Origin: Morchella semilibera
Lineage: Eukaryota; Ascomycota; Pezizomycetes; Pezizales; Morchellaceae
Reading direction: 5' to 3'
NCBI GenBank assembly: GCA_009192285.1
Contig: WBVU01000010.1
Coordinates: 1,672,111 to 1,736,110 of the forward strand
DNA length: 64,000 nucleotides
The position numbers and the translations under genes were made by a program. Shown here piece after piece: positions 26,216 through 54,605 of this stretch. Below the pieces are notes generated by a model. The model saw nothing but the letters and a program-made list of their open reading frames with translations, made no database searches and was not told the DNA's origin. The first letter of the stretch is position 1. Every line of letters starts with the position of its first letter.

Positions 26216-29200
26216 TACAAGCTACGTCGTCGTCGTCAACGAAACAAAACGTTCGCCGGCCCGCCACCGGTTATTGTGGGGAAAAGGGTTCGCCCAGGGA
26301 GATACGGACTGGGCATCATTCCCGGGGTAACGACGCCCCCCCCGTAAGGTAAGGGCGTAACTGTCAGGTTGCGGTTACGACCAAATACAGCCATACATGT
26401 ACATGTACTTATGCTGGTAACCTAATATGCATAATTCACACATGACAATCAACCCCCCCTGGGTTTTACGCTGTCCAGGGAATGCTGCAAAGTGAAACTA
26501 CCAGGCATGGGCGCTCTCCCGTTACTTACTCACCTAGAATAAATTATCATCAAATAAAAAATCGTCAACTACCTTACTGTACTCTATAAGGTCCATGAAC
26601 CATGAAGAGGGACAAAAAAAAACAATTTCCAGGTCACGAGCAGAGAATGATGGGGGTGGGAAAAGGAAAGAGAAAAAAAAAAAAAAGGAAAGAGGATTAC
26701 CCCAATTCCAACCCCAAGTCAGCCAAGTTCATGGCCAGTCCCAACCGCAATCACCCTTTCTGCGGAACCTCCTCATCGGTAAACTTCCGCCTACAACTAA
26801 ATAGATTCATGGCGACGACATTACGGCTTGAGCGCGTAGCATGTAATTTTCTGCCCACTGGGGTACATCATATCCATACCCAGGACCTGGAAACAGACAG
26901 CGGTTGCCTTAGAAGAGAGAGGAGATGGTGGGATAGAACTGCTTTGGTACCAATTCTCCGTCCGATCTGGAAACGCGGTTTCTCGATGTGTAGAATGTCG
27001 AGATGCGTTCATAATCGCGAGAAGGGAATGTTGATGTGATGTGAGGCAGTTAGCAGCAAGGTCGAAAAAAAAAAACAATAATAGCAATGTCATGCAATTG
27101 GCACAATGCAACCCGTGACAGCAATAACAACAACATATTTGGTTGTAAGCAGATTTGATCAGGTGGCTAGCTATTTTTTTTTTTTATTATTATTTTTTTC
27201 CCCTATGGTACTTTTTCCTTCCTTTTCCTCTTCGCTCTAACTACGTACGTACGGATAGGTACCCGTTCATTTGGTCACGGTGCGATCGGGCGATGATGTG
27301 CTTTAGAACAATTCCTTTTTCCTTTCCTCTTTCCTATCACTGGTGGTACCCGCAGCATCAAGCAGCCTCATTGCTGCTGCTGTTGTTGTCATTTTTGTTG
27401 GCACTACATGCTTGTGTAGGTAGAGTACATTTTCTTTGCGTGTAGAATCAAGGACATGTAGGTACTCTGCATACCGCTCCTTCTCTAACAATGCAATGTC
27501 TGTCTCCCTTTCCTCAGGTTGAGCTCAACCAATGTCAACTCACGATCACGGCTTGTCCATCTTTGAGTTTCCCGCACCACGCACGTCCAATCAATTAGCT
27601 AACTGCAGGTCCCAATCTAAATATCAATTCCGTGCATTAGCGAGGACGAGGTGGTGCATGAGGAGCTTTAAAAAAAAAAAAAGTACTGCTGATTTCACGA
27701 TGTCTCAAGAATCGCACATAGCCGGGTTAGTGGGATTTGCAAAAGGGCTGAAAGTGGGAGGTTCCTGGCTGGTTGAAAGATTTTTTTTTACTCTCTCCTC
27801 CCCACGTGTTCTAGGTTTTGGGATGTGCTGCCAAGAAATGCTCTGCTATGAGGGGGAAATGATCAATGGTCCGACATTTTATTTGATGGGCCAGGCCATG
27901 GGATAGTATTTGACACCGATTTCGCAATAAGGACCAAAGATGGAGCTATTCCAGCCAGGGCGGGGCAGGTACCTACAGACCTCTACCTACATACAAAACT
28001 TAAAACCAACTTTATTAACTCCTGCTTCTCCTCCACTACCACCACCACCACCACCACCGCCACCGGGACCTGCTTCCTTCCCCACAACCCGTGGTCCCCC
28101 CGCGGTCCTCAATCCCAGGCGTACATACTCGGCTATCGCTGTTTGCAGTGTCCATCGACGGACACGACGACCAGTGACTGATGCCGGTCGGCGTACCGCA
28201 TATCATAAAAAGCAAACACGCTTTCCTTCTAAAAAAAATTTTGCAGAGGGAGGGGCTATATAATATGATTGATCTCCAGACTCTCCCCATGTGATCAGCA
28301 ACTTCAATTGAAACCCCATCAAAGCAAGTATCCTACTGTAAAGTAAGCAAATCTCGATCCGATCGAGATGAGGGAGCGCGGGGAACATATGGATAGGAGG
28401 CTGTTTCATCTTATGTATGTACGTACGGTTTGCCTTTTGTAGAGTACCAGTGATCTGATCTGCGACATTGGCGGTTTGTTTCCATCTGGGGGTGTTAGTT
28501 TTTTTTTTTTTTTTTTTTGCTTGCCTGTGCATGGCATGCCGCACACGTTTTTGTTGCCGCGGTCTCCGCAGTTGTCAGTGGATAGTAAGGTTAAGGCAGA
28601 CAGGCACTGACTGACAACTTGCGGGTAGGTGGGTAGGGTATTATCGTTGAGTTTAGATACAGAACTGCTTACTCTACCTCACCCCAGTGCAGAGTTTTTC
28701 TGGTATGGGCGTCGATGGGATCGGAGATCGGACTATAGGTACTCTAGATATATCAGATGATACCAAAACACCACCACGACAACCCAGAGCTCCTCCAACT
28801 CTAAAAATTTTCTGACAGCTAAGCTATGCTAGTTCCAACACTTACCACAGTTATGAGAACCCTGGTAGCTAGGGAGAGCGACGACGCAGATGTGTACCGA
28901 TAAAGACAGTCCTGCGATCTGATATCGTCGGGGGTTTTTTGAATTCACATTTCACATTTTCGCTTTTCTGGGGTTTGGCCTTAGGAATTGGCGATCACCG
29001 TTTTTGCAGCTGATCCTGATCGTGGGCCTCAGGTCGATTGGTGCTCTGGGGCGTGAATTGGCGTTCCTGTTGCGAAGCAGAGAGAAAAAACGTTAATTGC
29101 GAGATTCAATATCGTGCAGTGCAGCTTCCCGTTCGGTCACAGAAACCCGGGGTACATGAAGGCATCCAAATACAGCATGCGTGGGGGACGGTTGGATGTC

Positions 29201-32200
29201 AATTGGGGCCGGGTCTAATCAGGCAGTTGCAAGTTCCTTTCCTCCTTCACCCGAGCTTCCAGAACTCGAATGTGCGATAGAGAACGAGAGTAATTACTCA
29301 ATATGGAACTGTAGATACGAGGGGCTCAGAGAGCGAAAAGAAAAGAAATTTATTTGCTACATAGATAGATTTGAAAAGGAGTATCCCGTACTGTGACCCC
29401 GAAGCTCGTGCGAGCGAGCGCCCCCAATGAATAGACTGTATGTAAAGCCGAGTGATTTCTTGTGACATTTAGCTGTTCAGTTACCTGCTGGCGCGTGCGT
29501 GCTTACTCTCTTGCGTGCTTTCGGGCGTGGGGGACGACAACCACAACACATTAACCCGCCCACCACCACCACCACAACCAGCGCCATGCAATAGTGACAA
29601 GCCTACATGTACATGTATTTACTCAAACAGGCATCTAGATACCCTCCCCCCCCTCTCTTTCTTCCGCCATCACGCTAATAAATAGATCTGGCTCACCCAT
29701 GCTGCTCATCTCAACATGAAGCTTATTATTATGTACTCCTTGGGAAAGATGAGAATTTCGAGGGGGGCAGTGGGATTCGAAATTTCCGAATTCTAGACCG
29801 GTACGAGCAGGTAGAATACCTACACCTCCTTAACTTGGGTTTGGGCTGGCTGTGTTGGTGAAATTTCTGGAGGGCTGGAAAAACGAAATATACCGGACCG
29901 TGGAGCGAAGATCTTACCAGTCATGGCCTACCTTACCTTAATAGGTATTTACATACCTCAGGTATCTACATACCGTCACCAGTTCACTACGCAGGTAGTT
30001 AATAGACCCATGAGTGAGTGGGTGGGTATATTTTTGTTTTGACGTGACCGGTCAGGGTCGACACCAATTAGCCCTACTGTATGTAGCTTTGGCCTGTGGG
30101 AGGGGGGGGGGGGGCGCGAATCCCTATCAATCATGAAGGGTCACAGAGCAGAGGTGCTACTGAAGGCCAGGACATGAGGTCAAGAACCAGTCAGCCAGCA
30201 GCTCATACTGGGTGGGGTAACCTAAGAGGCAGAATCCGGACAAGCAAAGAGTAGGATCACTTGCTCACTCGACGGCGTCTCGTTTCGCTTTTCTCAATTT
30301 TAATATAGCATCATCTGCAGCGGTTAAGCTTTTCCCTCCATCCACCATAAGATCTAATTGGAAACATAGCTAGAACTTCAATTTGCCTCGCTGTTACTGT
30401 ATATGTTACTCTAACCGCCCGGACCAGGTGATAGATGCCGGGGAGAAAGTAGAAAGAGAGAGAGGTGGGGGGGTTTCCTTCTTTCCCCTGAGAATCATAT
30501 CAATTGGAGCTGTGTTGGGTGCCGCGCCCTACATGTGATAGATATCTCGCTCTCTTCTATGTCTCTATGTAGTATTTATTTTGTCTCTATGTAGTATTTT
30601 AGGGTGTCATGTAGCACCGGCTGCATTCACATATCACGGACGGCCGTCTCCTCGTCTCCAAGGAGAAAATAGCCGTCAACGGCCGCGGCCACGGTATCTT
30701 TGGAATCTGCCGCACTGCACTAGAAGGGAGTGGTGGTGGTGGTGGTTCCCCTCCTCCCTCTGCTCCTCTTCCTCTTCCCCCGGTTACATCTCAAGCTCTG
30801 CGCTGATCACGAAAAATTTATAATGTGTCATATCGTGCTGAAGATTCTCCACATGGGATTCCCACCCGCCTAGCATATGAATGGATGGCTGGCCTAGGAG
30901 TTATTCGGCAATCCGGAGAGCATGTAACCTTCCCTTCCCCCTACGTACCCTACTGCACCCGGTACGGTATCTAAAAGTACCTATGTGTACCTTTTTCTTG
31001 CCTAGGCAAATTTCAACCCCATCAATTAAAGCCCCGTCACGGGACGATCCCGAGCGAATTTAAATTTCCCTTTGTACTATGTAGTTGGCTAGATGTAGAT
31101 AGGGTACTTTTGTTTCGCCAGGTTTAGGAACCGAGAACCTCGATTGTCTACCTCGTACCGACGTCGGCAGTGCACTGGGGAACGAATTAATGGGGAACAC
31201 CATAATAACAAAGAATACGAGAAAAACCCACTTGAGTTGCTCTATCACTCTGTCACTCAGTCATCTTCCCTTCCTCGGCCGCGCGGCACCCGAGGGTTGT
31301 TTTATGTAGGTAGTAGATAGTGGTAGTTCGAGAAGTTAGTATTAATTGGCGAAACAAAAACCAGCCGAAAACGTGCAAAACAAAAGAATGTGGGGTGCGT
31401 TTTTTCTTTTTGCATTCCTGGATGCTTACACTATTCTTATTTTATTTTTCTCTCTTTATTCTCTACTGGCCATGGACGGCTGGGCTGGGGCCTTATGATT
31501 ACACTTCTGTCCCGGGCGTTTATTTGGAGATTTTTCCACTTTCCCCGCTGCCCTTTTTGGAGGGTGTTTACGTATTAGAGGAGAGAGTTGCAATGCAGAA
31601 TTAAACAGAGGCAGAAGCAGTTGACCTGCGCGCTGGCTGGCCGGATTTGTGTGTTGGGCGCATGCCACGAGTCCAGCTGGCTGGCTGGTGAATTTATGAT
31701 CCGCAGTGGTGAGTGATCAATATCGCGGTAACTGATTGGAACAAAACACGGCATAACAGAATCACATATATACATACAACATCATCAAAAAAAAAAAACA
31801 ATAGGGAAGAAAAAACAACGAACTATGACTGAGTAAGGCTGGCGAAATGACACAGACTCCCCTCCTTCTAGGCCCTGAACAGGGGAGGTTGGAGGGTAAT
31901 GGGCAGGTTTTGTTTGTATGTATGTATGTAGTTCGTTTGTTTGACATGATGGGTTGTGCGTTGAGCCTATAGCTAAAAAGAATCACTCGCTCAGGAATGT
32001 TGTTGTTGATGATGATGATGATGATGAGGCGGCTAGCCAGTTCCCCAACTCTATACCATTCATTGTGGACCCGTGGTTGCCTTGTTGTTTAATTTTGGCT
32101 AGTTAGCAGATCATCAGAAACAACGGCCAACGAACCTACTACATCGTGAGGTGATGAATAGCATATGTAGGTCCCTTTCTCTTCTCGTGCGGTGAGATAT

Positions 32201-35200
32201 GTGTAACTCTCCATAACCTATCCAAGATGGAGCTATTGTCGATGTATGCTATTTACCCAGAGTTATAGAGTATACAGGGTAGCGAAAGAGTTAGTAGGGG
32301 AAAACCTGGGGGGAGGGAACCTGCCTGGTAACAAGTCACCCAATTAAGACCTCGCACCGGGCCTGAGTTTTTGAGGCGAAAGATATTTGCATCCCCGCGA
32401 TATGGATGTGAATCGGTTGAATTGTTTGGTATCGTATCGTTTGATAATCACCATATCTCACTCGGGTGCAAGGATGTCTCTTTTTTTTTTTTTTTGGCGC
32501 CTGGTACGTACTTACATGTAGCCTCTCCAAGCCTGGGCCCTTGCTCAACCAGCAACCCCCCCCCCCCCCTCCCCCCCCCCCACGCACCCCGGTACTTCCC
32601 TTTTTCCCCTCCACAGAGGACTCCGGGTAATCCGCTTATGCACCAACAACAAAGCACAGAAAATGAACTAAGAATATATGCACAGATCGATGGGTCCCGT
32701 CCATCGTAGGCTGTGGAGAGAGGAATCTGTGGAGCGCAGCTGACCAAACAATCTTTGACACGAATGAAAAATCAAGATTTTTACGTGAGGTATATATCTT
32801 AGCTGCCTCTGGACGTTTTGAGAAAAGGCCTTCTCTCTCGTCGGTGGATAAACAGGTTGACGTTGATCCTTAGTTGCCCTAGGTCATGGGGGCGCTCATC
32901 AACACAATAAGTTTTGGACCCTGATACTCTGGTAGGTAAGCCTATTCACTTGTTGGGCTGCCACATGAAGAATTTAAGTTGTGGTAATTGATAGCATGAG
33001 ATAGTAGGCTACCGAAGATCATGTACTCAATCCGACACGCGAGTGATTTGTCATGAACTCGGGCGTTGCCCCACAAAAGCAAAGAGCCTGTTTAGCCTAT
33101 AGAAACTGGGTTATACCGTGAGACGAGTGATAATATGTGACGTATTCGATCTTTGGGAGGCTTCCTCGAATATTGGTCTGATTGCCGTGCGTTTCTTCCT
33201 TGACGGATTTTAAGATCTCGCTAAATATTTTCCGGAGTTCCCGGAAAAGAAATTGACCCATACCCGGTACCGGTTGATCAATTGAGGTGAGGTGGTTCGT
33301 GCGTATTTAGCCAATCAAACCGGACACCCGCTTTACGAAGATCAAGGCTAATTTGCGAGACAAGTTAGACTTTTTGACATCTAGGTACAATAATGTACCT
33401 TGATGTACATGTATGTACATGTAGCTGAGTATTCCCGGAGTACTTTGCCCCGGGGAAGGGATGGATCAACGTATGTATCTCGAGTATCGCGATCTCTGCT
33501 CGGGGGGTTTGTGGCTTATTTTGTTCGCGCCATGGGGACCTTATTTCCCCCTTGACATATATATCTGCTAACCGCTAACTGCTAGAACTTTCCAAACACA
33601 ACTGGGTCCGCATACCATACTGCAAAAAAGCCCCATCAGCTACACGGAGCACGGACGAGGTTACGCTCACAAACGCTCCGGGGTGACAACCACTGGTCTA
33701 TGATCTGAGCGATTCAAGGCATCTCGGTGGATAAGTTGGGGAATATTCCAGCATCTGAGCTTATTTCATGCAAAAGTTTCTCTGGATCAATCGATTTTGA
33801 CCACCGATCAGATGACAGCGCGTGAGGCGGTATGTGATCAAAGAGTGTCAATCCACCTGATCGAGGCTGCGGACGCCGGGCATCAAACAAATCTGCCACG
33901 TACGCGTAACTCACTATATAAAGTCTTGAATGTCTAAGAGACAAACTTCAAAGGCGGAGCCTCCAAAACTAGAGCCGTCTTAGACTACCGATTGGGTCGA
34001 CTCTCGCCTTACAGCCGTGGGTAGCCTTGTGAATCGAGGCTATGTTTGGGGATCTATTTCCTCTGATAGTACCAAGCTCCGTTAAAATGCGTTGCTGGTT
34101 ACAGTATCATTGACAATCGAAGTTCAAGCTTCTGCAGGGCGTATCCGTGACCTCTAGATCTCATCTCTAGATAAGAGTCCCCGAGAAGAGTCAGGATTGC
34201 GAAGCCCCATCAATATAGATCATCTCAGCCTCACTTTCTCCGGGGTTATTGATAGCGTTCAGTGGCATGGTATGATTCATACCATGGGTACACCTACCCA
34301 TATGGTTTGGGGGCGTTGGGCTATCAATACTCTCGTATCATGTGCCCAGCGGATAAGCTTCTCGATTTGAGGAATATTGGTTCATCATGAGGCGGCATTG
34401 TCTTGCATTATCATCCTTTTTGAATAGGGTCTACAAGATAGGTGATTCGATTTTCTGGTGAAGCGTGGCTATGCACATTAATGGTGATAGTTAATATCCC
34501 CGTAAAGTTCGGTCTAGATTTACAAGAATCGTAGTATCAAGATCTGTGTGGGGATATGATAGTGGGTCCTCGATACAGACAACCCTGGTTCTATCTCTTG
34601 AGCAGTTGAGTTTCTAATTCTATTCTTGGGTGTCTAATGTGATAAAGCTATTTGCTTAAAATAGGTACGATATAGTTGGGTTCGGTCCGGATTCGGCATA
34701 TATATTTATAAAGGAGGCCAGAGCCGTTTGAACTTGGGCTACATGTATCTATAGAACGCCATTATCGAGATTAATCGTTAAAGCTCGGGCTGCAGCCGGG
34801 ATTTTAGCTGTTCTAGTAAAATTAGGTTATACGTGTATGTGGTCGGCTATGGATCCATGAATTTACATAGTTATATCGATCTTCAAGTTCTCATAGTTCC
34901 AGTGCAAATATAACATGATCATCACTATGAAGCGGTAAATGTGTCAAAAGTAATTTTACCAGCAGTAGTAAATTGTTTACCACCGGTAGTATAGGCGCTG
35001 AATTTCAGTCAATGTGCTAGCATAAATGCTAAATTTCAGTCTTTATGCCATGCTGTACTAAATTAGTCATTGATACCAACACTTATGAAAGTTTCTCGCT
35101 GGTGGACAATAGGACTCATATATTGGCCAAAAGGTCTGTGCTTTTACCATAAAATGTGACATTATAAGGTATAAGTGATGGTATTATTTTCCACCGGTGG

Positions 35201-35530
35201 TATTTTTGATATATGTATCGCTCTATACTATACACATTAGTTAAAGATGAGTTCTTCCAATTACTTTTAGAAATTATACATAGAGAGAGCAGTGACGAGA
35301 GCGGGGATGGAGGAAGTAGAAGGTCGGATCCACATTCTAGATACAATGTATCAAGTCCTCGTGCAGAGCTCATGACACTTCATGCACAGTTAGTTACAAT
35401 GAGATGGATCTAGGAATCTTCTAGAGACGTTGAGCTAGAGGTAGAACTTACTATGTAGGAAGCCCATGATTGTATTTTATTAGTGTTTTGAGAATATTTG
35501 GACCGAGCCGTCTCGTACACCAAATAAGTA

Positions 35531-36528
35531 CAATTCGGAAAAATGGGGTGTGATTCATACCGTAGTTTTACAATAGTATTACTGTCCCTTTGTAAGTACT
35601 ACACTCTGAGGATACTTGGGTTAATTCCAGATTTCTTTAAATACCGTATTTCATGGCAGACGTCCTGTCGAGACAATACGCTTGTTTGTAAATTCCGCTT
35701 GTTTGTAACAACTGTTGTGGGACGGCATGACTACTCCAGCTTTAAGATTACGTAATGTTAAAATAACAGTCTTACTATGGTATTCTTGCGGTATTTGAAA
35801 AGAAGCCGTCTTTTGTAGATGCTAGGAGTGTGCTGGTTTAGGTGTGGCTTGTTGCAACTAGCGCACTTTAGGATAAAGACGGCTTGTTTAGATAAGCTGT
35901 TGTATTATGATATGACTAAGGCTAGTTATTTATTACGTATTAGATTAAAAGCGGCACACAACAGGATGGATACGGTCGCACCCTAGTCACCTACAAGCTG
36001 CAGTAAGTTTCACACCACCACCCACTGACCGCTTGTTGCAAAATACTGGTTCATAAAAACACTATAGTAGACTGGAATTACAGATCCTATTGTAGTAGTA
36101 CTTATCCCATCACACAACCACTTGTATTTCAAAACAGATTTGCAATCAATTAGTCACACTACTGCATCACTACTACATTTCCCCCATAAGACTAGTAGCA
36201 GTACTGTATCGTTTCCATACCCAAACCGCATGTACGAGCGAACTTTTTAGCAAACTTTCTTGTATTGATATTTGCGCTAACCACTTGTGGACTCGCTAAC
36301 CAGATTTGGATCGACAGTTTTATTTTATTTTATTTGTTTTAAAATACAAGCTTCGCTAATATACAAAGTCACGACCCCTAACCCTGACTCTAAAAAATAA
36401 AGGGCGAATGGAAAGGTTAAACTTACAATTATTGGATTCGGTTATCAGAATCAAGTTACCTAGAAAACATGATGTTACTAATGAAATATGTTATTAAGAA
36501 CACATACATGCATGTAATAACGGGGATG
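35531..36528. other. Left subterminal region of the transposon
   Basis: Non-coding part of the element. It carries repeated GCCGT/ACGGC and TACCG/CGGTA motifs in both orientations between about 35550 and 35960, probably transposase-binding sites by analogy with CACTA elements. The minus-strand exon array begins at its right edge. Confidence 0.5.
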
Positions 36529-36883
36529 ACTTACTTGTAGAGATACATGATGTGTTAGACTGAGATTATCTGAAAGCGTTAGAAATGTACGGATCACAGG
36601 TACATGTATTGTACTTACTTCGACTCGCGCTGGATCCGCGCAGAGACACGTGAGTGAGGTCATCTGAAAGTGCGATGTTAGTAATACATGAGATAGAGGG
36701 ATGACTTACTTGGATGGATTCGCGTAGAGACGCGGATGTGCGGATGAGAAGATCTGAAAGTCAGTAACACGCGATGTTGGAGTAGAGAGCACTTACTCGT
36801 GTAGAGATTGTAGATGGGTAGAGGCGAGATTATCTGAGAGCGCGATGTCAGTAACACGCGATGCCGTAGCAGAGAGCACTTAC
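36529..36883 (-). repeat. Tandem array of duplicated micro-exons and introns
   Basis: On the minus strand four introns have perfect GTAAGT donors and TTTCAG or CTCTCAG acceptors: 36883-36834 (50 bases), 36796-36754 (43), 36709-36664 (46) and 36618-36570 (49). A fifth GTAAGT donor is at 36534. They enclose exons of 37, 45, 44 and 35 bases: 36833-36797, 36753-36710, 36663-36619 and 36569-36535. The introns are clearly homologous: the first two share GTAAGTGCTCTCT and ATCGCGTGTTACTGAC, and the third and fifth share GTAAGTCATCCC. The exons are alike too, most starting AT(A/G)A(T/C)CTC. The array arose by duplication of an exon-intron unit. A minus-strand ATG at 36970 could feed it. Two reading frames stay open through the joined exons until the last one, so coding status is unclear. 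Confidence 0.8.
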
Positions 36884-36970
36884 TACATGTATGCGATACC
36901 GATAAGAGTAAAGCTTACAATGTATCCAATCCGAATTGTAAGGCATGAACCCATACTCGGATGCCTCCAT
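36529..36970 (-). CDS. Possible micro-exon gene inside the transposon (hypothetical)
   Basis: Hypothetical gene model built on the exon array. An ATG at 36970 opens a frame (MEASEYGFMPYNSDWIH) that runs to the first array donor at 36883 and continues through the joined exons. Another donor, GTAAGC at about 36920, would shift the later exons into a second open frame whose exon peptides look alike (NLASTHLQSL, DLTHVSL, NLSLTHHVSL). Either product would be about 70 residues, with no domain I recognise. The 3' end is uncertain and lies near or left of 36529. It could equally be a spliced non-coding RNA. Low confidence as a protein gene, higher as a spliced transcript. Confidence 0.3.
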
Positions 36971-37451
36971 CGGTGATGATAATGTACGTTGGGTGGTTTG
37001 GTGATGATGATTGGGTGATGGTGGAGAAGAGGAGGAATGTGGAGATGGGAGGATCTTAAACGTAGATTGTGGGCTCTTAGGGCATAAAAACCCTTTACTT
37101 CTTGGCGTCGGCTATGCCTGGAAATTTCTATCTCCACCTCTCTATAGAAACAACAAATCCACCCTTTTCTACACTCTAATCGCTGCGTACCATACATGTA
37201 TACATGTATGTATGCACTTGTAACAGACGTACATGTATCCACAAAAAAATGCCCAACCCCTCTTTGGTATACAAATTGGAAAAAATGCCGTACTCCGAAC
37301 AAGAGACAAAAGAATAAGTGAAACACAACAAGGCTGGGAAAGACATGCTTCTAGGGTTGATAAAAGAGAAAGGAAATGCATATGAATAATAGGAAAAGAT
37401 ATATAAAAAATAAAAAAGAATACGAAATCTTCAGCTTCCAGAAAACCGCCG

Positions 37452-39109
37452 TCAAGCCATTTGGGCGAACTGACTACTATCGTAGTCTTCTTCCTCATCC
37501 TCTTCCTCTTCTTCTCCCCTTTCCGGTAACTGCGATCCGAGTAGTTCATTCTCGTTCGCGCGAATCGGTTCGTCTAATTCGTTATCTGCCGCGATAGCGG
37601 CGTTTGCACCAGCATCAGAAGCTGCAGCATTGTTCTGTATGGTCTCGTCGCCTTCGTCATCCGAGAAAGGTATGAAAGCATCGTCGTTATCAAGAAGGTC
37701 TTTATCCTTCGTTTTCCTGAAGCGGACCTTACTAGGCGGTTTGCTAGGCAATAGGACGATGATATCAAGACCCAGATTCTTATATTCGGGTCTAAGCCCA
37801 ATAAGTCTAACTTTATCCATGCAAGCTATTCTATTGTATACCAATGGGTCGTGACGCGCCATATGTGAGTATCTGCTGCATGTTAGACGCGTTCAAAACC
37901 GTCGCATTAAAAAATGAGATTGGTGAAATAGCTTACACCAAAGAATAAGTAAACATCGTCCTGAATAGGAGATCTGCATTTGGTTGCTCAATTGTGGTTT
38001 TCCAGTCGACAACAGCACGCGTAGTCCCCATGAGCCGGTAGAAGTTCTCGAAATTGTAATGTGAAGCGTATGCATTACGCAGGTTTTTGCCTGAGAGCTC
38101 CACAACCCATGCATTTTCCTTCTCGATCTTAGCCTGTAAATCATCTACCTGTGCATAATACGAGGAGAACCAATTCTTCCGCCAACTCAGAATTCGCTGG
38201 TACGCATCCCGGTATCCTCTGGAGTTGACGTCAATTCTCTTTGCTGAGGATTTGGTAATAATCTCGATGATCTGTTCATCGTGTATCTGTAGATAGCGAC
38301 AGAAATATATACGCGAAAGAGATATTATAGCGTTCCAAAACTCTCCCCCGTCGCCAAATTCAGCATCAAACCTACTACTATCATATGGGCGCTTAGGGGC
38401 AGTGGTTGCGTAGAGAGCCTTGTCAATTGTAGCCTGTATTTCTTCGTTCGTCATCCCATCGGGAGCCTATACATGTATGTATCACACCATCAGCAAATGA
38501 TACGTGACATGGTCTCGTTATTCGTGAACTCACGCGGATAACATAATCCTTTTCAGCGACGTGCTCTTCCTCATCATCATCATCGGCAATGACGAATGGA
38601 TTCTCATCCACTTGTTGAATTTCTTGCCTTTGCCGAAACTGGACAGGTCTGGAGGCCTGGATGGGCGCGGTTGCAGGCGCAGCGGCTATAATAGCTGGCC
38701 GGACTGTGGGTCTTTGGGGCCGAGAACCACCGCCACCGCCACGCATGCCCGGTGTGACATTATTACGATTTGATACCTGTGTGGCTACTACCTGTACTTG
38801 TGTGGGCTGACTGGACTGATTGGACGCTTGACCCGATGACTGGTTCTGTGTGATTCTCTGGTTTTGTGTTGAGCCTTGTGTCGAGCGTCCAATTGTTTGT
38901 GTCTGCTGTGAATAATCAAATATATTAGGGAAGTTAGGAGAGGGTGGGGCATTTTCAATAATCGAGGCAGGATTAAAAATATTTTGATCAGAACGTCGTG
39001 GGAAATTAGGCGTTGGACTAACGGATTGACGAACTCGTCTAGAGGAAGGGGTTACGCCGGCACCGCCTATTCTCCTCCTCGGGGTTCTTATAGGCCCTGT
39101 GGTTGACAT
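37452..39109 (-). CDS. Transposon accessory protein B, unknown function
   Basis: Minus-strand gene inside the transposon. Exons 39109-38534, 38466-37937 and 37875-37452, giving 509 residues with consistent splice phases. The ATG at 39109 is chosen because the longer frame has no upstream ATG. The N-terminal 190 residues are disordered, Gln/Asn/Ser/Thr/Pro-rich with RTPRRR, a Gly run and an acidic DDDDEEE patch. The middle (about 195-400) looks folded, with Trp/Tyr-rich segments such as GEFWNAIISLSRIYF and RILSWRKNWFSSYYAQ and a helix DLQAKIEKENAW. The C-terminus is strongly acidic (EEEEEDEEEDYD). I recognise no family. CACTA-type elements often carry a second DNA-binding or anti-silencing protein, so a helper role is plausible but inferred. 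Confidence 0.7.
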
Positions 39110-39456
39110 GACTTCGAGCGCTGATGATAATAATGACTTCAAGGGTTGAGTTCATAGAGATACACGTAGTGGATGATGTGAGTGGGGGGGGGTTGATGAT
39201 CGTGAGAATTGACTCGTTGTTTTGGTGCCTCCATACCCTAATTGGGAATGACGGGTGTCGCTTAGTAGTCACGTGAGCCACAAACACGCGACATGACCCT
39301 GCATAGCGCGATCTTGTTGTTACACAGGGTCCATAGAACGATATAGAAGGTAAAGCTTTGTAGTATTTCAAATCACTCTGTTACACGACCTAAAACTTAT
39401 TGTTTACATGAGATATTGTTTCCAGAGACGTTATGAAATCCATCGCTGCCCTCCTG

Positions 39457-40024
39457 TTAATTTTCGTCTTCCTCCTTAACATCCACCTTGATCTCCTCAT
39501 CATTTTCATTTTCATCCTTGATATCCGCACCCCCGTCCTCCGCAGCCCCTTCGCCATTTTCCTGCTCCTCTTTTTTGACCTTACCGACAACCTCCCATAT
39601 GATAGTCGCGTGATAACATTCCTCGTCGTCCCAGACGAAGGGAGAGAGTGAACGTAGAGTACCCTGGATGATATACCCCAAATCAAGGATTTGAATCATA
39701 TATTCAGAGTGGTTGGCTCTAATCCATCCACAACGCAAGTAGCCGTCCTGGACTTCGACTCCCCAGATGGGGTGGCATGGGGTTGAATTGGAGCCCAATG
39801 CCTTAACGAGCCTGTAGACAACTCCAAAAGAGGGAGGGCATTGGTTTTCGATACCACGGTCTCCGCCGACGTCTATATTATAGATGAATTTAATGTGATG
39901 TTAGCAAAATATGTGTATTTAACAAAAAAAAAAAGGGACGTGTAGTGAAGACGGGGAGCTCACATATCATACGAGCCATGCCAAATTCCCTAGCAACATT
40001 GATACCTTCGATGTAGTCGGACAT
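39457..40024 (-). CDS. Transposon accessory protein A, unknown function
   Basis: Small minus-strand gene inside the transposon. Exons 40024-39964 and 39872-39457, giving 158 residues, with a clean GTGAGC donor and TATAG acceptor. The N-terminus reads MSDYIEGINVAREF. The core (about 25-115) has a compact, globular look with several Trp and Cys residues (CHPIWGVEVQDGYLRCGWI, then SPFVWDDEECYHATIIWEV). The tail is highly acidic and Glu/Asp/Lys-rich. No known domain is recognised. It lies between the transposase start and accessory gene B and points away from the transposase, so it may share a promoter region (40025-40567) with it. Confidence 0.6.
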
Positions 40025-40567
40025 GATTTCTAGAAGACAAGTGCGATGAAGCAAAGCGAATCACAGACGATGAATGAGTGATGAGTGATGAACGATGATG
40101 CAGGTAGAACCAATGAGTGATGAATGGTGATGTTCTAAACAGGAAGGTGTGTGGAACAGGAAAGTGGATGTGCGGGGCACATGGTTGAGGCTTGGCTACA
40201 ATGCGAACCATGAATCTCGAAAACATCAGATTCCGAGTGATTGAACATGATTCTATATGTACACACACAACACAACACACAAGCTGCTTACAATCGCCTG
40301 ATAATAGAAATAAAAAACGCATGTAAGAACACAATTCCGATAATAAATCCTTAAAAAAATGGACGTTGTTACATTCTGCTGGGTTCGCCTATTTGTTCAG
40401 AGCTGATGGACTTTCCCTATTTGGTGAAGAGTTTCCTGATTTAGTGAAGGATTTCCCGATTTGGTAAAGATCGAGTGAGGCTCAAGGAGAGCCCATGACA
40501 TGATGAGGCTCAAGGTAGGCTCAACCCATGCTCACCACTGTTGAGAGTTGATCGCACATCACATCCA
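40025..40567. promoter_or_regulatory. Divergent internal promoter of the transposon
   Basis: A 543-base gap between the starts of accessory gene A (-) and the transposase (+). It holds short direct repeats: TGAATGATG/TGAGTGATGA variants at about 40070-40130, and TTTGGTGAAGA/TTTAGTGAAGG-like units at about 40420-40470. It probably drives both genes. No consensus factor site is identified. Confidence 0.45.
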
Positions 40568-43500
40568 ATGAAGCGCCGAGGGACTCTTGCACATCTTCCT
40601 AAACCTAAGCGGGGCTGTAAGTACATGTACCTGGGCGTATTTCACTCGGTATATGGGATTACCACTAACAAATTAATTGCGTGTTATCAGTGCCGGCCAG
40701 ACTTGGTGGGCCTCCGGCGAGGACACCAAGAGCTCATACAACATCGCCAACACACGTACCAACCCCCGAAGGTATACCACCTGAAGAGATCGGGGTATAT
40801 GAAGATCAATCCCAAGATGCCGTGGCTATGGCGGTTGAAGACGATATAGACTCAATTATCTCTCCTATACCAGGGCGCTTGCCATTCCAACAGCTATCTA
40901 CCAACATTATGGGTGTATATTACGGAGATCGGGACGCAGAGGATGGTTCTGGTACAAGTGATGTGGATGGTGACGATGCGGTAGTAGATGAGAACGGAAT
41001 AGTAGAAGAGGGGCAACAAAAGAAAGTGGTCGCAGAGGGTGGGGAGATTTCGGAGGAGATTACGGGGGAGGGTTCGGGGGAGGTGGAGGTGGCGATGGAA
41101 AAAGAGTTGGGCTCTGTTACAACCAACACCGCCCCCACCACCGGACCAGAAGAGGCAGATCCCAAGGCCCATGTCGTTGTAGAGACCATCGCCGACGGCC
41201 CGGCCGACAACGAGAGGATGGGGGCGGTGGATGATTTCCACATTGCAATGATGCTTTTCGTTACTAGCTCGGATATCTCGCGATTGCAATACAAAGCTCT
41301 GACGGAGGTATTGACTCTTGCTACCATCGAAGGCCTTCGTACGCTCGCAAAAAGTATAAAGACCCTCAGAGAGAATACCAGAAAGTCGTTTCCCTTGTCG
41401 CAAATCAAAGCTCGACCTGTCGGCGTGAGTTTAGATATCACTCCACCCAAAACAGAGACCCCTCGGCTGGCATATTATTTTGATGCGTCAGAATACTGCA
41501 AACTATGGCTGAGCGACCCAAAGATTCGCAGCATTCTACACACAGACATGGGCATTATCGTCGACAACCCATCAGAATTATGGCATGGTGATGCATGGAT
41601 GGAAAGCGTTCGTTCGACATCTGGGGTCTTCGCTAGAATTGGGGTCTCACAAGGTGCTGCAACACCCGATAACGTCCTATTGCCATCCGACTGTGTCAAA
41701 TACGAAGACCAAACAGGAAACATTGTTTACGGCCGGGTAAAAGCGATAGGAATCGATAGAAGAAGGACGCCACAAGGGACTTATCCCACAAATCGGTCAT
41801 ATTCAGCGATTGTGAATCGTCTAATACCAGTGAACCAAGTACCAGTTGATTTCCATCGCTCTTCAATAAACGATACTTACCCGTCCTACCCATCAACACT
41901 ACCAGAGTTGGTCCTTTTCGAGAACAGGGATATCATCCCGTGCTCTAGTATAATATCCAAAGAATGGGTCTACTTTACGGATTACGAGTCACCGGAAAGC
42001 CTCAAAGACAGTTTACTACCACACCCACCCACATTCTGTGTGCGTGAAATCGTGTATTTGATATGGAATAGGCCCTGCATTCGGCCGGTGCATAAAAGGC
42101 ACAGGGTAGCAGCAGAAAATGAACTCATCCATCTCACGAGGAAATATGTTCTAGAGAACTTTGTCGAAAAAGAAGGTGCAGTGCGCCGCCGTCACGTATC
42201 GGTTCCGTTTTCTATCTTCCTAGATGGTTTCGGTCTGTATCGAAATGCGTACCACAGTCTGAAGGGCATGTACATCACCCCTGCTGGGCTGGATTCCGAC
42301 TCACGGTCTCAGATGGCGAATATGTTCGTTCTGATGCTGGGGCCGTTTGGGTCAAACGAATTGGAAATGGCGGCTTGTTTGACGAAAGATAGCGATTTAA
42401 CCGGGCGTGGTTTTGATGCCGAGCTACAAAACGGTGATGCAGTCTTTATTACAGCTTTCCCGCTTCTATTTACCGGAGATCTACCACAGCAGAACCAAAA
42501 CTCTGGAAATAAGACTCATAACGCAGAATACGGCTGTAGGTATTGCTTCGTGCATGATAGCGCCCGTGGAGACTTGATGCAGGATATTCACGAAAATGGG
42601 AGATACCAGGCGCCGAGTAGGTTACTCTACGAGACAGCGATGAAGATACTTACCAAAAGCGGGCGATCAGCGGCGTTGCAGAAGGTTGGATTAACAGCCG
42701 AAGGACCGTACTTCACTAGATGCTACCCAATGTTGGACCCCCAACGATCTAATCCCAATGACCCAATGCACGCCGAACTCCGCCTATGTAAATACTTCTC
42801 CGAGGCTTTGATAGAAGGCATGCTATCACCATCTGGGATCCTAGCCTACCGCGAGGCATGGAACGATGTCGATGTCCCTTATGGTTGGGGACAACCCCAA
42901 AATCCGGTGAGCCACAAAGGCTCGATGGTCTTCAGCGAGCACGGTCGTATGGCTATCATGAATCCGTTTGTACTGATGCATCTCTTCACAAACGAGAGCT
43001 CTAAACACCACACACACACCTCCGAGAAGCCATATCTGAAGGCCGGTATTGAAGCGAGAGTTAAATCAACATTTGCTGAGATTCATGGTTTCGGCAGTGA
43101 TACCCTGTACCAAAGCGCTAGATTCTACATCGTTAAGACTTCTTATACACTTGCGAGGACTGTGCATCTAACATTGAAGAAAACATTAACACAAGAAGAG
43201 CAAAAAGAAATGTATGCCGCCGTTTATCAAGTGAGCCCCCCCTTATCTCAAACGGCTTGAAGAGCCAAGGACTGACTCCATACATGTATGCACGTAGATG
43301 CGTATGCTACTCCGACAGTTCTTCAAGTCTACAGGTGGAGGGAAGGGCAGCTTTCAGAAGTATGCAGACGTCCCTAACATACACCTCGGACTCCATTATG
43401 CTCAAGACGTTATGAATTTTGCTACTACATTCAACGCGACGACGGCAATGGGAGAACAGAAGCATAAAGTTTTTAAACAGCACGCTGGGCATACGAATTC

Positions 43501-44218
43501 CCACGAAACAAATTTGCAGTTACTCAAGCTGATCAACACAACCCAAACGATACGATTACTCTTAGACGACACCTTTCCTAATCTCACGATCTCAAAACAG
43601 GTTCAGGATGTTGTCGCGAAATGCCCAACGCTAAGGTTTCGCTTCCTGGGCCGTGCATTAGCGGAAGAAGCCACTCGAGATGATAGTACTGCCTTTTGCA
43701 TAGGTATCGACGTATCTCACTCCCTCCTACTATCGGCGAGAGCGGGTCGGCCGCTCACACTAAAGAGTATATCAAACCAAGACAAAGAGAGTCATCTCCG
43801 AGAACTAAAAGAACTCTACAAGATTGAGCACGGGGTTGATATTGATAATTTGAGGATGCGGCTTCACTATTGGCACTATTTTACAGGGAAACCACATGCG
43901 AGCGCCCGGGTCGATGGACAGCATGATTTTAGAGTGGTAATTGGAGGTTTTGTACGGTTGCGTGGTGACTCGGCGTTCTATCGCGTTGATGCCATAATTA
44001 CTCTGACGATAGGGTCTCTAAAGAGATCATACTTTGTTTTGATGTTGCTACAACGTGACGAGGCAGAAGAAGTTGAGGCTGCCCCGTTCCCCGTGCTTAA
44101 ATTGACCACAAAGTCAACAATTATCGGTATTAGAGCGCTGGACCCTGTAATTCTGCACTTTGTCAAGAAAGATGACGCTTCCTGGTGGTATAATCCTTTT
44201 GTTCCGCACTTCATATAG
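40568..44218 (+). CDS. Transposase, CACTA/Plavaka-like
   Basis: Catalytic protein of the element. Exons 40568-40616, 40691-43230 and 43298-44218, giving 1,169 residues. Both introns have good donors, a CTAAC or CTGAC branch site and acceptors, and each contains a TACATGTA. The N-terminal 190 residues are acidic and disordered. The core shows the RNase-H-like layout of CACTA-type transposases: FSIFLDGFGLYRN (Asp528), then SLKGMYIT and LMLGPFGS, then TGDLPQQN (Asp613) followed by a Cys pair, CRYC (632-635). A His/Cys-rich middle and the MNFATTFNATTAMGEQKHK segment follow in exon 3. The third catalytic acidic residue cannot be fixed by eye. No stop interrupts the frame, so it looks functional. 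Family: EnSpm/CACTA-like, possibly the fungal Plavaka group; superfamily confidence is moderate. Confidence 0.8.
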
Positions 44219-44752
44219 TAAAGTCACAGAGAATGTAAAATACATGTAGATTCAATTAAAAAACAATACTACATGTACACGTACATTGTTTGGATATATT
44301 TTTTTGCTCTCAAAATCTACATGTAAAACCGCGATATAAATGCGGTAACGATACAGTATTACTATAGGCTTATTATTGTATTTGAAATATAATGCTGTTT
44401 TAGAAAAGCCGTATGCGAGCAGGGGTTTTAGACATGCGTCTGAACAAGAGACTAGCAATATTACGGTGACAGTACCGCATGCCAAGAAATGCTAAAGAGA
44501 TACCGCTCGCCTAATGCACTTTCAAAAAAGCCGTAAGGATACGGCAGGGATACCGCTCCCTGCAGACTACGGCTTGTGTGACTAATAGCGCTTTTTAACA
44601 AATGCCGTACTAGCTTGGGACTAATGAACCGACGCATGTTTCTTAATCTACCTTTTTATAAAGACGGCTTTTTTCTAATAACCATAGTTTTACTGTCATG
44701 ATTAGAATACAACATTCATGCGGCACCGATCACACCCCGATTTCCGGTATTG
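44219..44752. other. Right subterminal region of the transposon
   Basis: Non-coding. Between 44390 and 44690 it carries about ten GCCGT/ACGGC and TACCGC motifs, matching the left subterminal zone. Three TACATGTA copies lie at 44241, 44270 and 44318. The terminal inverted repeat ends at 44752. Confidence 0.55.
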
Positions 44753-45304
44753 TACATGTAGTTGAGGGTTCAGTAAGTGGCCATGGTTTAGAGGAACACC
44801 GGGGGTATGGGTGTCATAATACTGGTTATGTTAACTACATGTATACATGTATGTATTTAGCTATTTTTTTGAACCAGTACATGTAGTTAAACTATACGGC
44901 GATTAGTTTTTAATATCCTGGAGGATTGGGGAATTCTAATGTGTTTGCTATATCATACAATGAATGCTTTTTGTCGTAATAATGACTAATTGTTTTTGCT
45001 ACGCACATTGCATGTACTATTACTAGCCTTTGAGATGATTTAACCACACAAATTCCAAGCGGGGCTCAATAACCTTAACCGAGTGAGATCACATGAACTT
45101 CAAACCGCCAAATAAAATATCTTGGCTCTATGCGTATTATACCACGAAGACTCGTGCACAGCAAATACAGATGGACACAGGACGAGGCCTTGAAACTGTC
45201 TATGAGCACAAAAGTGAGCAGAGGCTGGTACCCCCTGAAGCCCGGCATGTGTATTTGTGTATTTTTTTTTCCAATGCCTTTGCTAAAATAGGTTAAAACC
45301 AGTT

Positions 45305-45387: not shown

Positions 45388-45758
45388 CTCATTTTTGTCA
45401 ACAAGGCCGAGTGTTGGATCTAATGTTATACATATGTGCTGTCAAACTCCAGCTACTAGATATGGTTACGTTATTGAACTGGTTGAAAATTTTCACACAG
45501 CCACTAGAGATCACTATCAGTCGCAAAGAGATAGATAAATCTCCATTGGAATTCATTGAATCTAAATAGGCCTTTTTACTACATTACTACATCTAGTGTC
45601 CCTACTGCGCATGTGGGATGTACATGTACATGTAGTTACTTTATCACGCATGCGGGAGTTTAAAAAAGTGGAAAAAGATGAAAAATGATTTATATTTCGT
45701 GTTGAGGGGCATCGGGCATTTTGCAAGGTGAAATACGTAAAGCAGTAAATCTAAGATT

Positions 45759-48450: not shown

Positions 48451-49195
48451 ACCAAGGGATGTAAACGCCCTATAAAGGTACAACTTTTGGTCCCAAGTAC
48501 CCTTATTAGAGATTCGACTATACAGGCCAAGAGGAACACCAGGAAAATAAATAAATGCCCTGTAGGCTGTACTACGAAGAACGTCTTTGGTGTGTTACCT
48601 TGGTACATGTACCACTGGTCCGTGCACCGCCTCAAACCACCGATAAGCATAGCCACGTGAGAACAGTCCCTGTTCCAGAAGTGGGGTTATCAGATAACAA
48701 ACTCAATGAACAGTGACGATTGCCTACCTTGGAAGACGGAAATGTTCATAGGTATATACATTTTAACTATGTAGGTGTTTGTTGCATCTCGATGCCCAAC
48801 TGCATGGCATGTGCAGCAAGATGCCATGGATGAGGGAAGCGCTGCGCAGTTGTACGTAGACAGACAGTGGGGCCACAGTATCAGCCCCGCAGAGATAGTT
48901 TATTACTAGGACCAAAGCTCTTTCTCCCCCTCACCTGTCATCTTTCTTTGTGATCACGAAGTCTACAAAAACGCCTTTATTTATCGGTTTTGCAGCAATC
49001 TGTATGTGCACCCTTTCCCAGTCCTTTATGTCACGGATATATAGCTAGGGATAGGAAGCAAGAGTGGCTAACGTCGTACATAAGGCTCCTGAAAGTGAAG
49101 ACGACCATTAGCGATGTTTGGGTCATCTGTAATTCACATTGACAAACTTATTTACTACATACTAAAGATATCGGGACTAATGTGTCTTTACAACT

Positions 49196-50558: not shown

Positions 50559-52765
50559 GACAAAATGAAGCCCATCTCATAGGAACCCAACCACATGCAC
50601 CAGGTTTATTTCTTATACAACTGGTATTTCTTTATTCTTTCTTTCTTTCTCTCTGTTTTACCCGAGTGAGATGATTTGACATTGATGGTCGAGGGATCAT
50701 CCTTCCTCGTCCGTGAACCTTTGTAAAAGTTGGTGATTTAAGCCTTTAGCTAGCCGGCCCGACTTTGTGTAGCCTAAAAGCCGTTGTGATTGTAACTTCA
50801 GAGAGCGTTGTCTATGACTAAAGTGTGTATCGTATCATTGGCCATTCTTACGCGTAGTGTTAGAAGAGTTTATTATATTCCAATTGAACGATTAGTAAGT
50901 GTAGCCTGTCCTTGTTGAAGTGGTACGAGCTGAGGTAGAATGGGGTTGGTAGGAATAGGATGGTAGCATTTGTTTTGAGATCAAAATTTCAACGCATCCC
51001 ATGAGTTTGTTACTGTCCTTTGGAGCTCTATTAAGTGATATCTAGATGTACTAATAATATTATATATGTATATGTAGTTTTTGCTGTAGTAGCTGCATTC
51101 ACCGCATACTACATACTTGTTTCCGGTAGTCTCGGAAGACGCAGGAGGCTTCGTGAGTTGGCCTGTTTCCATAACACGGGATGCCTTCCCGGAACTTCTG
51201 AAACGTCTCGAGGGCAATTAAACATAGAACAACCAAATCTGGGCCGAACTCTAAATGTCACAGGATGCTCATCATCTGGGCCCGCCCTACGCCAACCCCA
51301 GGGGCCCCAATTCCGATGATACACAATCGCAAGAAACTCATGGGGCTTAAACATGTAGCACATTGACCCCACTATTTTAACAGTGCATGTAAGTATGGGG
51401 ATATTCAGATGTAGTTATACACACTGCCAATCCCGGTGGTTTCCCAGATACTGGATTGTGCCATTAATTTATACTATAGAATAGCATGCAAGTACTTTAC
51501 ATGTAGGTCGTATGGTACTATTAAGACCCTAATCATAAGATTCCTGAACATAGTTCATGATAAGTGATGATTATGTTATATAGGCCTATGTATTTAAGCA
51601 TCGATCTGGTTATTGGCCTATGGCCAGTATCCTACTTAAGGGCGACAGGCGGCCTAATTAGATCTTAAGTACATCATACACTACATAAAAGGGTCGACTA
51701 CTAACATGGCCATATGGATATAGTAGTCAAATACTTTTTACATCTCTTTGATGGCAAAAAGCCAATACCCTCAAATCTAACCAATCGTATCCTTCAAAAA
51801 CCGACCGGTATACTACGTATTTCTTATAACCAGATCAAAATATCTCCGAACCACAGAGATCTACATGCATGTCTATGATTAATTGAAACTCTTGGGGTGA
51901 AGTATGTATGAGTCAAAAGTAATATAAGCCTACAACCAACGGGCCGGGAATGGTGATCATGTCTTAGTTGTTGATGACCGGCTAATAGAACTGTCAGATT
52001 TGTTTTGCAACGGCCTCTGTCTGCCACGGAATTTCTGTTGTGTGTACCTACTCGCTCATGAGGTGACGGTGTTTCTTTCCTAATGGCCATATATTAAGGG
52101 ATTATAGATTGGCGACACTGACACGAAAACCGTTGTGAGACGCAATCCGCCTTCGCTAAGTGGGCGAGTGGGTTTAGGTACCCTTGGAGATGTTTTTTTG
52201 TACCTTGCGCTTGAGGGTTGAGAGCTGTATACATGTAGGCCTTCGTCTCTCAATTGCAATAAAATGCTACCCCTCCAAGAAAAACAGGTCTGGTGTGGCC
52301 TTACTAACAGACCTCGTTTTCACTTAATGGGAAATTTAACTCCTCTATTCGGCACTTTGCGCAAATGATTGGTGCCGATCTCATGTTCCGCAAATCAGAA
52401 TAGAGTAGCTCTATTTGCGCAAAGCCTCTATTATATGGGGGGGAGATATTAAAATACCCCACTACTCATTACCGATAAGGGGTCGGCTACCAACACTGAA
52501 TTGACGCAGGGACCAGCAAGTGCCACCCGCATCTGGGCGGAAACGGCAAGCAACCGGGATCGGAACGTGATGCCGGAAAAGGTATTGATAGCCAGCTAAC
52601 TATAATAGAAATAGACCAGACGGAATTACAAATCTGAGTCCTGCAGTCACGACAACTCACCTAAAATCTTGATATATATCTACAGCAGTATCGTACCCGT
52701 TTGTTGACAATTATCCCGGCTCTTGTCATCTTCCGCATTACCGTCCGCCGTGAAAACCTCGTAAG
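50559..52765. other. Intergenic region between the Lsb5-like and transporter genes
   Basis: Probably the 3' flank of the first gene and the promoter of the second. It contains a TTTC-type repeat near 50630-50660, a possible small membrane-protein frame at 51074-51319, TACATGTA at 51498 and 52230, and short inverted repeats with a TTTGCGCAAA core near 52350-52430. Confidence 0.5.
51074..51319 (+). CDS. Possible 3' exon of a small membrane protein (hypothetical)
   Basis: An open stretch of about 81 codons ends in TGA at 51319. It begins with a strongly hydrophobic segment (FAVVAAFTAYYILVSG), then a basic RRRR cluster, then a Ser/Gly/Pro/Gln-rich tail. There is no in-frame ATG. A TACTAAT branch site at about 51045 and an acceptor ending at 51073 lie just upstream, so it could be a terminal exon. 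I could not fix a first exon. No family recognised. It may be chance. Confidence 0.2.
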   Translation, partial: VVFAVVAAFTAYYILVSGSLGRRRRLRELACFHNTGCLPGTSETSRGQLNIEQPNLGRTLNVTGCSSSGPALRQPQGPQFR

Positions 52766-54605
52766 ATGTCTAGAAACACGCAGTCGAGAGATCCCTTGGA
52801 CGAGACCTCACCACTGCTCGGGGGTGCTCCTGTAGCTACCGAGATTATTGGAGAACGCGTTATAGGTAGTAGTGGCTGTGCTGAGCCTCTGAAAGATGAT
52901 GTGGATCTTCCAAAAGAATTGTCATTGGCGAAATTAATAGTTGTGATGCTGTCGGTGTGGGTATGTTGACCGTATAGATACCTGTGCCCTTGGTTGAATA
53001 CAATGTATCTAATAACGATATATTATCCTACAGGTCGGTGTATTCCTTGCAGCGGTCGATACTACTGTCATTTCCACCCTTCTCGCTCCAATCTCAAGCT
53101 CCTTTTCATCCTTCTCATCAATATCCTGGGTTGCGAGTGCATATCTCATCTCCAATGCCGCTCTACAGCCGTTACTTGGCAGGCTCACAGACATCTATGG
53201 TCGCCGCTCTGGACTTATAGTCTGTAATATTCTGTTCGGGGCTGGTACTTTAATGTGCGGTCTTGCAAAGAACGAGTACACCATGATCGCAGGACGAGTG
53301 ATCGCTGGAGCTGGCGGAGGAGGCTTGACTGCGATTTCCTCTATTGTTGCTAGCGATCTGGTACCATTAAGGAAGAGAGGAATTGTCCAAGGAGGGGGAA
53401 ATTTATCATATGGCGCAGGAGCAGCTCTGGGAGGTGTATTTGGTGGTTTTATCCATGATCGTATTGGCTGGAGATGGGCGTTCTTGATACAGGTAAACAC
53501 ACGATCGATCGGGAGATTGTATAGTGCTGACGGGATGAACAGGTGCCCTTTATTATCGTGTCTGCGGTTATGGTCGCCGCATTTGTGAGGATTCCTATCA
53601 AGAAGACAAATATTGCACGCCACAGGAGAATTGACTATCCGGGTGCATTCACACTTGTAACGTCGTTGGTACTGCTATTGATTGCGCTCAATACCGGCGG
53701 TAACATGCTGCCGTGGACCCACCCGCTCATCTTGGTGTGCCTCCCACTTAGTGTAGTGTCGCTGCTGGCATTTGGTTATATCGAGAAGAATCTGGCACAA
53801 GAGCCTATCATCCCTGTAGCTCTCTTAGGTGACCGCACAGTATTGGCAGCTTGCATGACCAACTGGTTCATGGTTATGAGTGTATTCTCTTTGGTAACTA
53901 CACTTTCTAGACTCCCAACTTGTGTCCGCCTAATAACGTAATTACATGTAGTATTTCTACTGCCCAATATATTTTATGGTGCGCGGGCAATCTTCCACCG
54001 ACGCCGGTCTTCGTCTGACACCCTTCGCCGCCGGCATCTCTGTCGGCTCTCTGAGTACTGGTATCGCTATGAACCGCTCCGGCCATTACTACAAACTTGG
54101 GCTCCTTACTATGTTCATATACAACTCCGGTGTCGCCGCAATCTGTACATTCAGCCTAAGCACCCCGCTCTTCCCGCAGTTCTTCAACTTCTTCGTTTTT
54201 GGGTGCGGCTACGGTGGTGTCCTTACTGTAACGCTTCTAGCACTAATCGCCGCTGTTGGTCGGGAGGACCAAGCCGTGGTTACGTCTGCTAGCTATGCAT
54301 TCCGCTCGACGGGGAGTACAATCGGTACCACGGTCGGAAGCACAATTTTTCAGAATGTATTGAAAAGGAGGCTGGTGGATTACTTAGGCCATAGTGAGGA
54401 AGCGAGAAGAATTATTGAACAGGTGAGGGAGAGGTTTGATGCTATAGATAGCATACCGGGCGAGTATTTGGATAGGATCAAGGGGGCTTATATGGACGCC
54501 TTGCATGCCGTGTTCTATGCAAGTCTAGGCATGGGGGTATTGGCGATGGTCTGTTCTGCGTGGATGAGAGAGCACAAGCTACATAAAACTTTAGATAGGA
54601 ACTAA
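52766..54605 (+). CDS. MFS transporter, DHA2 family, vacuolar amino acid / multidrug type
   Basis: Proton-coupled antiporter of the major facilitator superfamily, 14-TM DHA2 group, close in style to fission-yeast Fnx1 and yeast Vba proteins that load basic amino acids into the vacuole. Exons 52766-52960, 53034-53492, 53543-53893 and 53952-54605, giving 552 residues. A soluble N-terminus with a DETSPLLG dileucine-type motif (about 12-19) suggests vacuolar sorting. Then come TM1 with FLAAVDTTVISTLLAPI, motif A GRLTDIYGRR and the motif C-like GAGAALGGVFGG. A second half begins SVFSLYFYCPIYFMVRGQS. The C-terminal end is a short cytosolic tail. The third intron contains a TACATGTA. Substrate (amino acids versus drugs) is not certain from sequence. 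Confidence 0.92.

Follow-up and report, generated by a model that had tools for sequence, protein, structure and literature searches.

We propose a model for the origin of an abundant eight-letter palindrome, TACATGTA, in the genome of the ascomycete Morchella semilibera (56.8 Mb in 23 contigs), starting from a 64-kb window of this genome (C9:1672111-1736110; contig WBVU01000010.1 of assembly GCA_009192285.1). In this model, most of the genomic copies of the palindrome are probably excision footprints of cut-and-paste transposons that insert at TA and have CA...TG ends. Insertion would duplicate the target TA, and excision would leave two transposon bases on each side; end-joining would then give TA-CA-TG-TA, which adds six bases to the empty site. 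This excision product is known for worm Tc1, and we infer the excision step for the genome studied here. Ladders of overlapping words would build up when elements return to a TA or to one close by, and selection would clear the scars from exons. The likely source would be one or more families of the Tc1/mariner or pogo type and not the large TA-inserted element that lies in the window. We prefer this model because of the rule that the flanks obey, one clean and one near-clean pair of alleles, the contrast between the bodies and the flanks of a family of miniature inverted-repeat transposable elements (MITEs), and the distribution of the word relative to genes.

Abundance, placement and flanks of the palindrome

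The window contains 39 exact copies of TACATGTA, which ranks third among its 8-mers, behind A8 and T8. In the whole genome, there are 22,206 copies, compared to 3,723 of the reversed word. A 122-kb sample gave 51 copies, with 3.1 expected from an order-2 and 7.3 from an order-4 Markov model. None of the TANNNNTA words in this sample approaches TACATGTA in excess, and TACATACA and ATGTATGT words are likewise over-represented. The 14-mer ladder TACATGTACATGTA occurs 501 times in the genome and its reversed control 90 times. Applying the per-TA rate of the window to the 22,206 sites gives an expectation of 289 ladders; this expectation should rise, because the right-hand TA of TACATGTA always has an A at -3. 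The reversed-word counts (3,723, 90 and 1,407) are themselves inflated because these words overlap TACATGTA, ATGTACAT sitting within TACATGTACAT. In the window, overlapping ladders are at 26394..26407, 29604..29617 and 45621..45634, abutting pairs at 37193..37208 (37193/37201) and 44836..44851 (44836/44844), and a pair with a spacing of 10 at 33406..33423. The window together with the initial 221 kb of C1 gave 137 spacings, the shortest being 6 (n=4), 8 (n=3), 10 (n=3), 11 and 14; most words stand alone. Once the words are collapsed, spacings of 6, 8 and 10 become TA, TATA and TANNTA. Thus, the abundance, the ladders and the abutting pairs were all found as described in the original prediction, a reading of the window's letters alone, and so were the ends TA|CAAT...ATTG|TA of the large element.

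Exons and introns were taken from our own simple gene predictor, which probably misses many genes, so that exon counts are approximate. Predicted exons hold 967 of the 3,963 TAs of the window and none of the 39 copies of the word (Fisher p 3e-5), as anticipated for scars that are selected against in coding DNA. Introns have four copies in 3.6 kb and intergenic DNA 35 copies in 39.5 kb; intron density is therefore about equal to intergenic density, and the distances to predicted gene starts in the window are scattered. The four intronic copies are in g7 (38470..38477), in g9 (40622..40629 and 43281..43288) and at the end of the g11 intron (53943..53950), where the word forms the splice acceptor TACATGTAG. 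The same acceptor arrangement is present in an intron of L030, judged from a tblastn match. Going by sequence, insertion into an acceptor TAG, giving TACATGTAG, would keep the acceptor working.

Removal of CATGTA collapses each word to TA and leaves ANNTANNT, i.e. a target of the Sleeping Beauty/Tc1 type. Both flanks fit (ANNTACATGTANNT) at 8,039 of the 22,206 genomic sites (36%), compared to 8% of sampled TAs. In a 158-kb sample with 58 sites, A at -3 or T at +3 is found in 65 of 116 half-sites, versus 27% for TAs in general (p 4e-11). Among the commoner TA-X-TA words with X of at most four letters, CATG has the highest fit to this rule (56%); the fit is 50% for TACTCCTA (11 copies) and 67% of 12 for the simple repeat with X = TATATA. 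TACATA was considered as a partial footprint and rejected, since it is enriched (154 versus 112) with one-sided flanks (A at -3 in 67 and T at +3 in 47 of 154). Three-base footprints, TACAGTA and TACTGTA, showed no clear rise (25 versus 19). The published targets are alike: as far as the available text of each paper goes, that of Sleeping Beauty is ANNTANNT (PMC2756404), that of worm Tc1 is CAYATATRTG, with A-3/T+3 (PMC9635669), and that of the pogo-type element Passer is AAGTACTT, also with A-3/T+3 (PMC9976928).

Empty and putatively scarred alleles

A MITE at 34926..35202 of the window (forward strand; inverted ends of about 65 bp, not of the TA type) allowed us to use its sister copies as a paralogue test. 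The family (L058-L119 and the window copy) exceeds 60 copies by a good margin; its long inverted ends start with TATGGAGC in many copies, and its target duplication, judged by eye, is 7-8 bp. Each search gave 224-269 candidate places and scored 38-40 of them, and 62 regions were used; the first 38 copies and the window copy are 86-97% identical to the majority consensus. The 22.5 kb of MITE sequence contain four copies of TACATGTA (two in L060, one each in L086 and L111), with two more in unaligned inserts (L079, L110), and the 5.9 kb of short flanks contain eight. Per TA, this amounts to 4/2,208 in the bodies versus 8/624 in the flanks (p 0.001), with 39/2,996 in the window. The bodies would be younger than the flanks into which they inserted. 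This test replaced a count in loci rich in transposable elements, whose low density (14 sites in 77 kb, 19 loci) had been considered as counter-evidence to scars; the count was dropped because it mixed coding with other DNA, and because L013 and L014 seem to be the same region in duplicate.

The clean allele is at L086:170, which reads GGTAAAAT-TACATGTA-CTTTTGACACATT where sister MITE copies have TA. The collapsed 28-mer has 112 matches in sister copies with at most five mismatches, several of them with none, and the full string has no match. At L060:168, there are 12 extra bases at a TA relative to L119, with six mismatches in 28, which is suggestive only. A second six-base difference came from the right end of the large element, which recurs in L007: the window reads TACATGTACACGTA at 44270..44283 and L007 has a plain TACATGTA, i.e. 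TA and TACACGTA differ by six bases at 44276, in a direction that is not polarised. A survey of 1,185 TA-N4-TA sites in 199 kb gave eight with a TA-only paralogue, and their inserts are TATA (three), CATG (two), CACG, AAAT and TTAA (one each). One of the CATG cases and the CACG case are the same change at 44270-44283. With TATA put aside as slippage, two of four independent TA-N4-TA events are therefore CATG or CACG.

A comparison of C9 with C10 as haplotypes was discarded as a source of TA and TACATGTA alleles, as the two are too alike (eight mismatches over four alignments and 63.6 kb). They diverge in a block with sharp borders, window 25468-26025 versus L040 (557 versus 346 bases), which contains no clean six-base case. 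Similarly, the difference between TACAATGTA at 36916-36924 and TACATGTA in C10 is a single base, possibly an assembly error, and was not taken as a scar. C10 also has an additional 87-bp repeat unit near 36784, and the C-tract region at about 32570 differs.

Resident elements as candidate sources

At E <= 0.001, the genome gave 69 matches to the DDE_3 and 96 to the DDE_1 transposase domain, near-duplicate contigs included. Among 11 DDE_3 loci, L050 duplicates L049, ends were not found in three (L045, L047, L124), and the remaining seven are Tc1-like insertions (L046, L048, L049, L120, L121, L122 and L123). Boundaries were chosen among nested solutions; for L046, a solution starting with CA and having one mismatch was taken over a nested one with none. 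CA ends are present in six of these insertions (L046, L048, L049, L120, L122, L123) as well as in the pogo-like elements L051 and L052; no ends were found in the DDE_1 loci L053, L055 and L056. The seven insertions fit A-3/T+3 in 12 of 14 half-sites and have the common target form A-N-G-TA-C-N-T. L123 has a DDE_3 match in an open frame of 368 amino acids and inverted ends that are identical over 18 bases. Because it reads AAATG-TA|CACCC...GGGTG|TA-CATGTATCC, it is located inside the first TA of a TACATGTA; judging from this arrangement, L123 may show the filled site from which excision would produce a ladder. L120 is located in TACATGTG.

The large element of the window (35531..44752, forward strand) likewise occupies the first TA of a TACATGTA. 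Its ends, CAATTCGG and CCGGTATTG, abut TA at 35529..35530 on the left and at 44753-44754 on the right, the latter being the first TA of the word at 44753..44760; both ends recur elsewhere and stop at TA. The left 0.7 kb is common to L004 (86%), which together with the near-identical L003 lies on C21 and C22, respectively, and the right 0.5 kb to L007 on C19 (96%). As similarity ends at TA in L003/L004 and in L007, a TA target duplication is credible. Joining the outer flanks gives AAATAAG-TACATGTA-GTTG; since the empty site would thus read AAG-TACATGTA-G, the element appears to have landed in a pre-existing word. A predicted transposase-like gene (40568-44218) has 35 protein-level matches in the genome, a count in which gene fragments and duplicate contigs are entered separately, and two sister ends of the element have no ANNTANNT flank signature. 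The suggestion that this element could be the cause of the scars is therefore not supported, given its 35 matches, its apparent landing in an existing word and the flanks of its sister ends.

Regarding its affiliation, the window open reading frames gave no Pfam match and no match to the Plavaka domain, and of two paralogue stretches, L012 gave a weak Plavaka match (16.1 bits, under the cut-off of 26.3) and L011 none. Plavaka is linked to CACTA transposons, and inverted ends are common to Plavaka/CACTA-like elements and the large element, which is a candidate member only. An intron of the window transposase gene and the homologous intron of L013 both contain TACATGTA, at different places, and L011 has no copy anywhere; conservation of the word in this intron as a sign of function was thus rejected. 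TA-flanked inverted repeats in the window, as a possible local source, gave two weak matches, neither of them convincing.

Within the large element, further copies of TACATGTA are at 36601..36608, 36884..36891, 37230..37237, 44241..44248 and 44318..44325, the last two being common to L007. The remaining copies in the window are at 82..89, 139..146, 3188..3195, 5993..6000, 11334..11341, 11923..11930, 18994..19001, 19501..19508, 23567..23574, 32513..32520 and 34740..34747 to the left of the element, and at 44878..44885, 48604..48611, 51498..51505, 52230..52237 and 59662..59669 to its right. Genes in the window have short introns and several exons each, and Ysc84, Dfp1/Him1 and KH proteins are among their products, all of which points to a fungal genome. 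The stretch from 18300 to 37400 (about 19 kb) is without a predicted gene and is either gene-poor or contains missed genes.

Counter-evidence, alternative explanations and implications

Several observations weigh against an origin by excision, and the thin tail of decayed words is the strongest of them. With TACATGTA masked, words at one mismatch number 96 versus 75.7 expected and words at two mismatches 746 versus 748; the excess at one mismatch lies in the transitions (45 versus 25.6 for the four types), the eight transversion types being at 51 versus 50, and this bias taken by itself speaks for scars. Neutral decay at a steady state would give about equal numbers of one-base variants and intact words, and with about 55 intact words in excess, such decay should have produced more one-mismatch words than are observed. 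Thus, either most of the activity was recent or something protects TACATGTA. In the MITE regions, a clean TA-only match was obtained for just one of 14 words; L060:252 has one collapsed match with four mismatches, and the other 12 have none. There is no clean match for the two words of L060 or for those of L111, L079 and L110; the other eight failures concern flanking DNA, in which homologues would not be expected. Paralogues also differ by inserts of other lengths (17, 8, 3 and 6 events for 2, 3, 5 and 6 letters), and TA-anchored differences include other letters too. Paralogues that are 96-98% alike share five of five comparable words (three in window/L007, one each in L048/L049 and L051/L052); with so little divergence, steady scarring and selection would predict this alike. 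The model gives no account of the frequent spacings of 26-35 bp (eight of 137). TACAT outside TACATGTA likewise prefers A at -3 (38%), as a half-site might. Finally, resident elements fit imperfectly: L121 ends in CT instead of CA, and the pogo-like sites L051 and L052 fit A-3/T+3 in two of four half-sites. The seven Tc1-like insertions have 14 half-sites, 13 of them with G/C beside the TA; the flanks of TACATGTA differ, with G at -1 in only 37 of 144 half-sites (72 sites). Because of this difference, and judging by target sequence, these families are probably not the sole or main source. The original prediction as a whole is supported in part: its core, that TACATGTA is a scar of TA-inserting elements with CA...TG ends, gained support from the ANNTANNT flanks, the clean and the second six-base allele, the similar intron and intergenic densities and the elements found inside the word.

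The thin decay tail, the shared paralogue sites and data from Phytophthora, where the same word has been proposed as a motif upstream of 12,070 genes with a cited Irx preference (available text of PMC3520976), are the chief reasons for retaining a second explanation, which we regard as unlikely. According to it, TACATGTA, extended to an A..T palindrome, is a binding site under selection, either of a homodimeric protein (e.g. a TALE/Iroquois-like homeodomain) or of a general chromatin factor. The A-3 preference of TACAT half-sites, the close clustering of sites and a single match to a Homeobox_KN gene in the genome agree with binding. However, introns are as dense in sites as intergenic DNA, distances to gene starts are scattered, 501 ladders with a six-base overlap would be hard to bind twice, a TA became TACATGTA by a clean insertion within the inverted repeat of a MITE, and there are, in our judgement, far more sites than one factor usually has.

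It is considerably less probable that the word arises by instability of simple repeats or palindromes, i.e. by slippage of ACATGT-like sequence or by hairpin-templated insertion. The over-representation of TACATACA and ATGTATGT and the repeat-like look of the ladders would fit such a process, but most copies are single, the insertion in L086 has no adjacent repeat to slip from, and the -3/+3 flank rule is left without an account. The poorest prospect is that TACATGTA arose otherwise and is a favoured target of TA elements instead of their product. L123 and the large element do lie in a TACATGTA and L120 in TACATGTG; yet five of the seven Tc1-like insertions lie outside TACATGTA, if L120 next to TACATGTG is included, and neither the excess of TACATGTA nor the clean six-base allele is explained.

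The proposed scar has close counterparts among known systems. The footprint of C. elegans Tc1 (taCATGta) has the same eight letters, the TA target, the CA...TG ends and the A-3/T+3 preference. However, it is rare there, as far as the available text of PMC3520976 indicates, and TACATGTA is genome-wide here, where it is known from sequence alone. Sleeping Beauty and Passer have comparable targets, ANNTANNT and AAGTACTT. The footprint of Sleeping Beauty keeps three transposon bases, and TACAGTA/TACTGTA, by contrast, are without a clear rise in M. semilibera. The accessible part of PMC2874221 describes footprints as the product of end-joining, with the TA duplication on both sides. Motif-1 of Phytophthora is the same abundant non-coding palindrome and was read by its authors as a regulatory site; in the available text, they note TACATGTA as the C. 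elegans Tc1 footprint and argue against a footprint for Phytophthora (PMC3520976). The three papers found to contain TACATGTA as a whole word (PMC3520976, PMC3597505 and PMC6165875) all concern Phytophthora, and among the listed papers on footprints and Tc1 (30 of 1,302 and 12 of 187) there was no report of a Tc1-type scar that has accumulated genome-wide.

We speculate, without rating it at even chances, that about one in 77 non-exonic TAs of the window is a scar, that TACATGTA forms a genome-wide and partly datable record of transposon jumps, and that the Phytophthora motif is, at least in part, a footprint as well. If the model is correct, a sequence previously taken for a regulatory motif would be a mutational scar, and a control for excision scars would be needed wherever motifs are sought in genomes with many Tc1-type elements. 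Such scars would also allow past transposon activity to be counted and dated even where no element remains.

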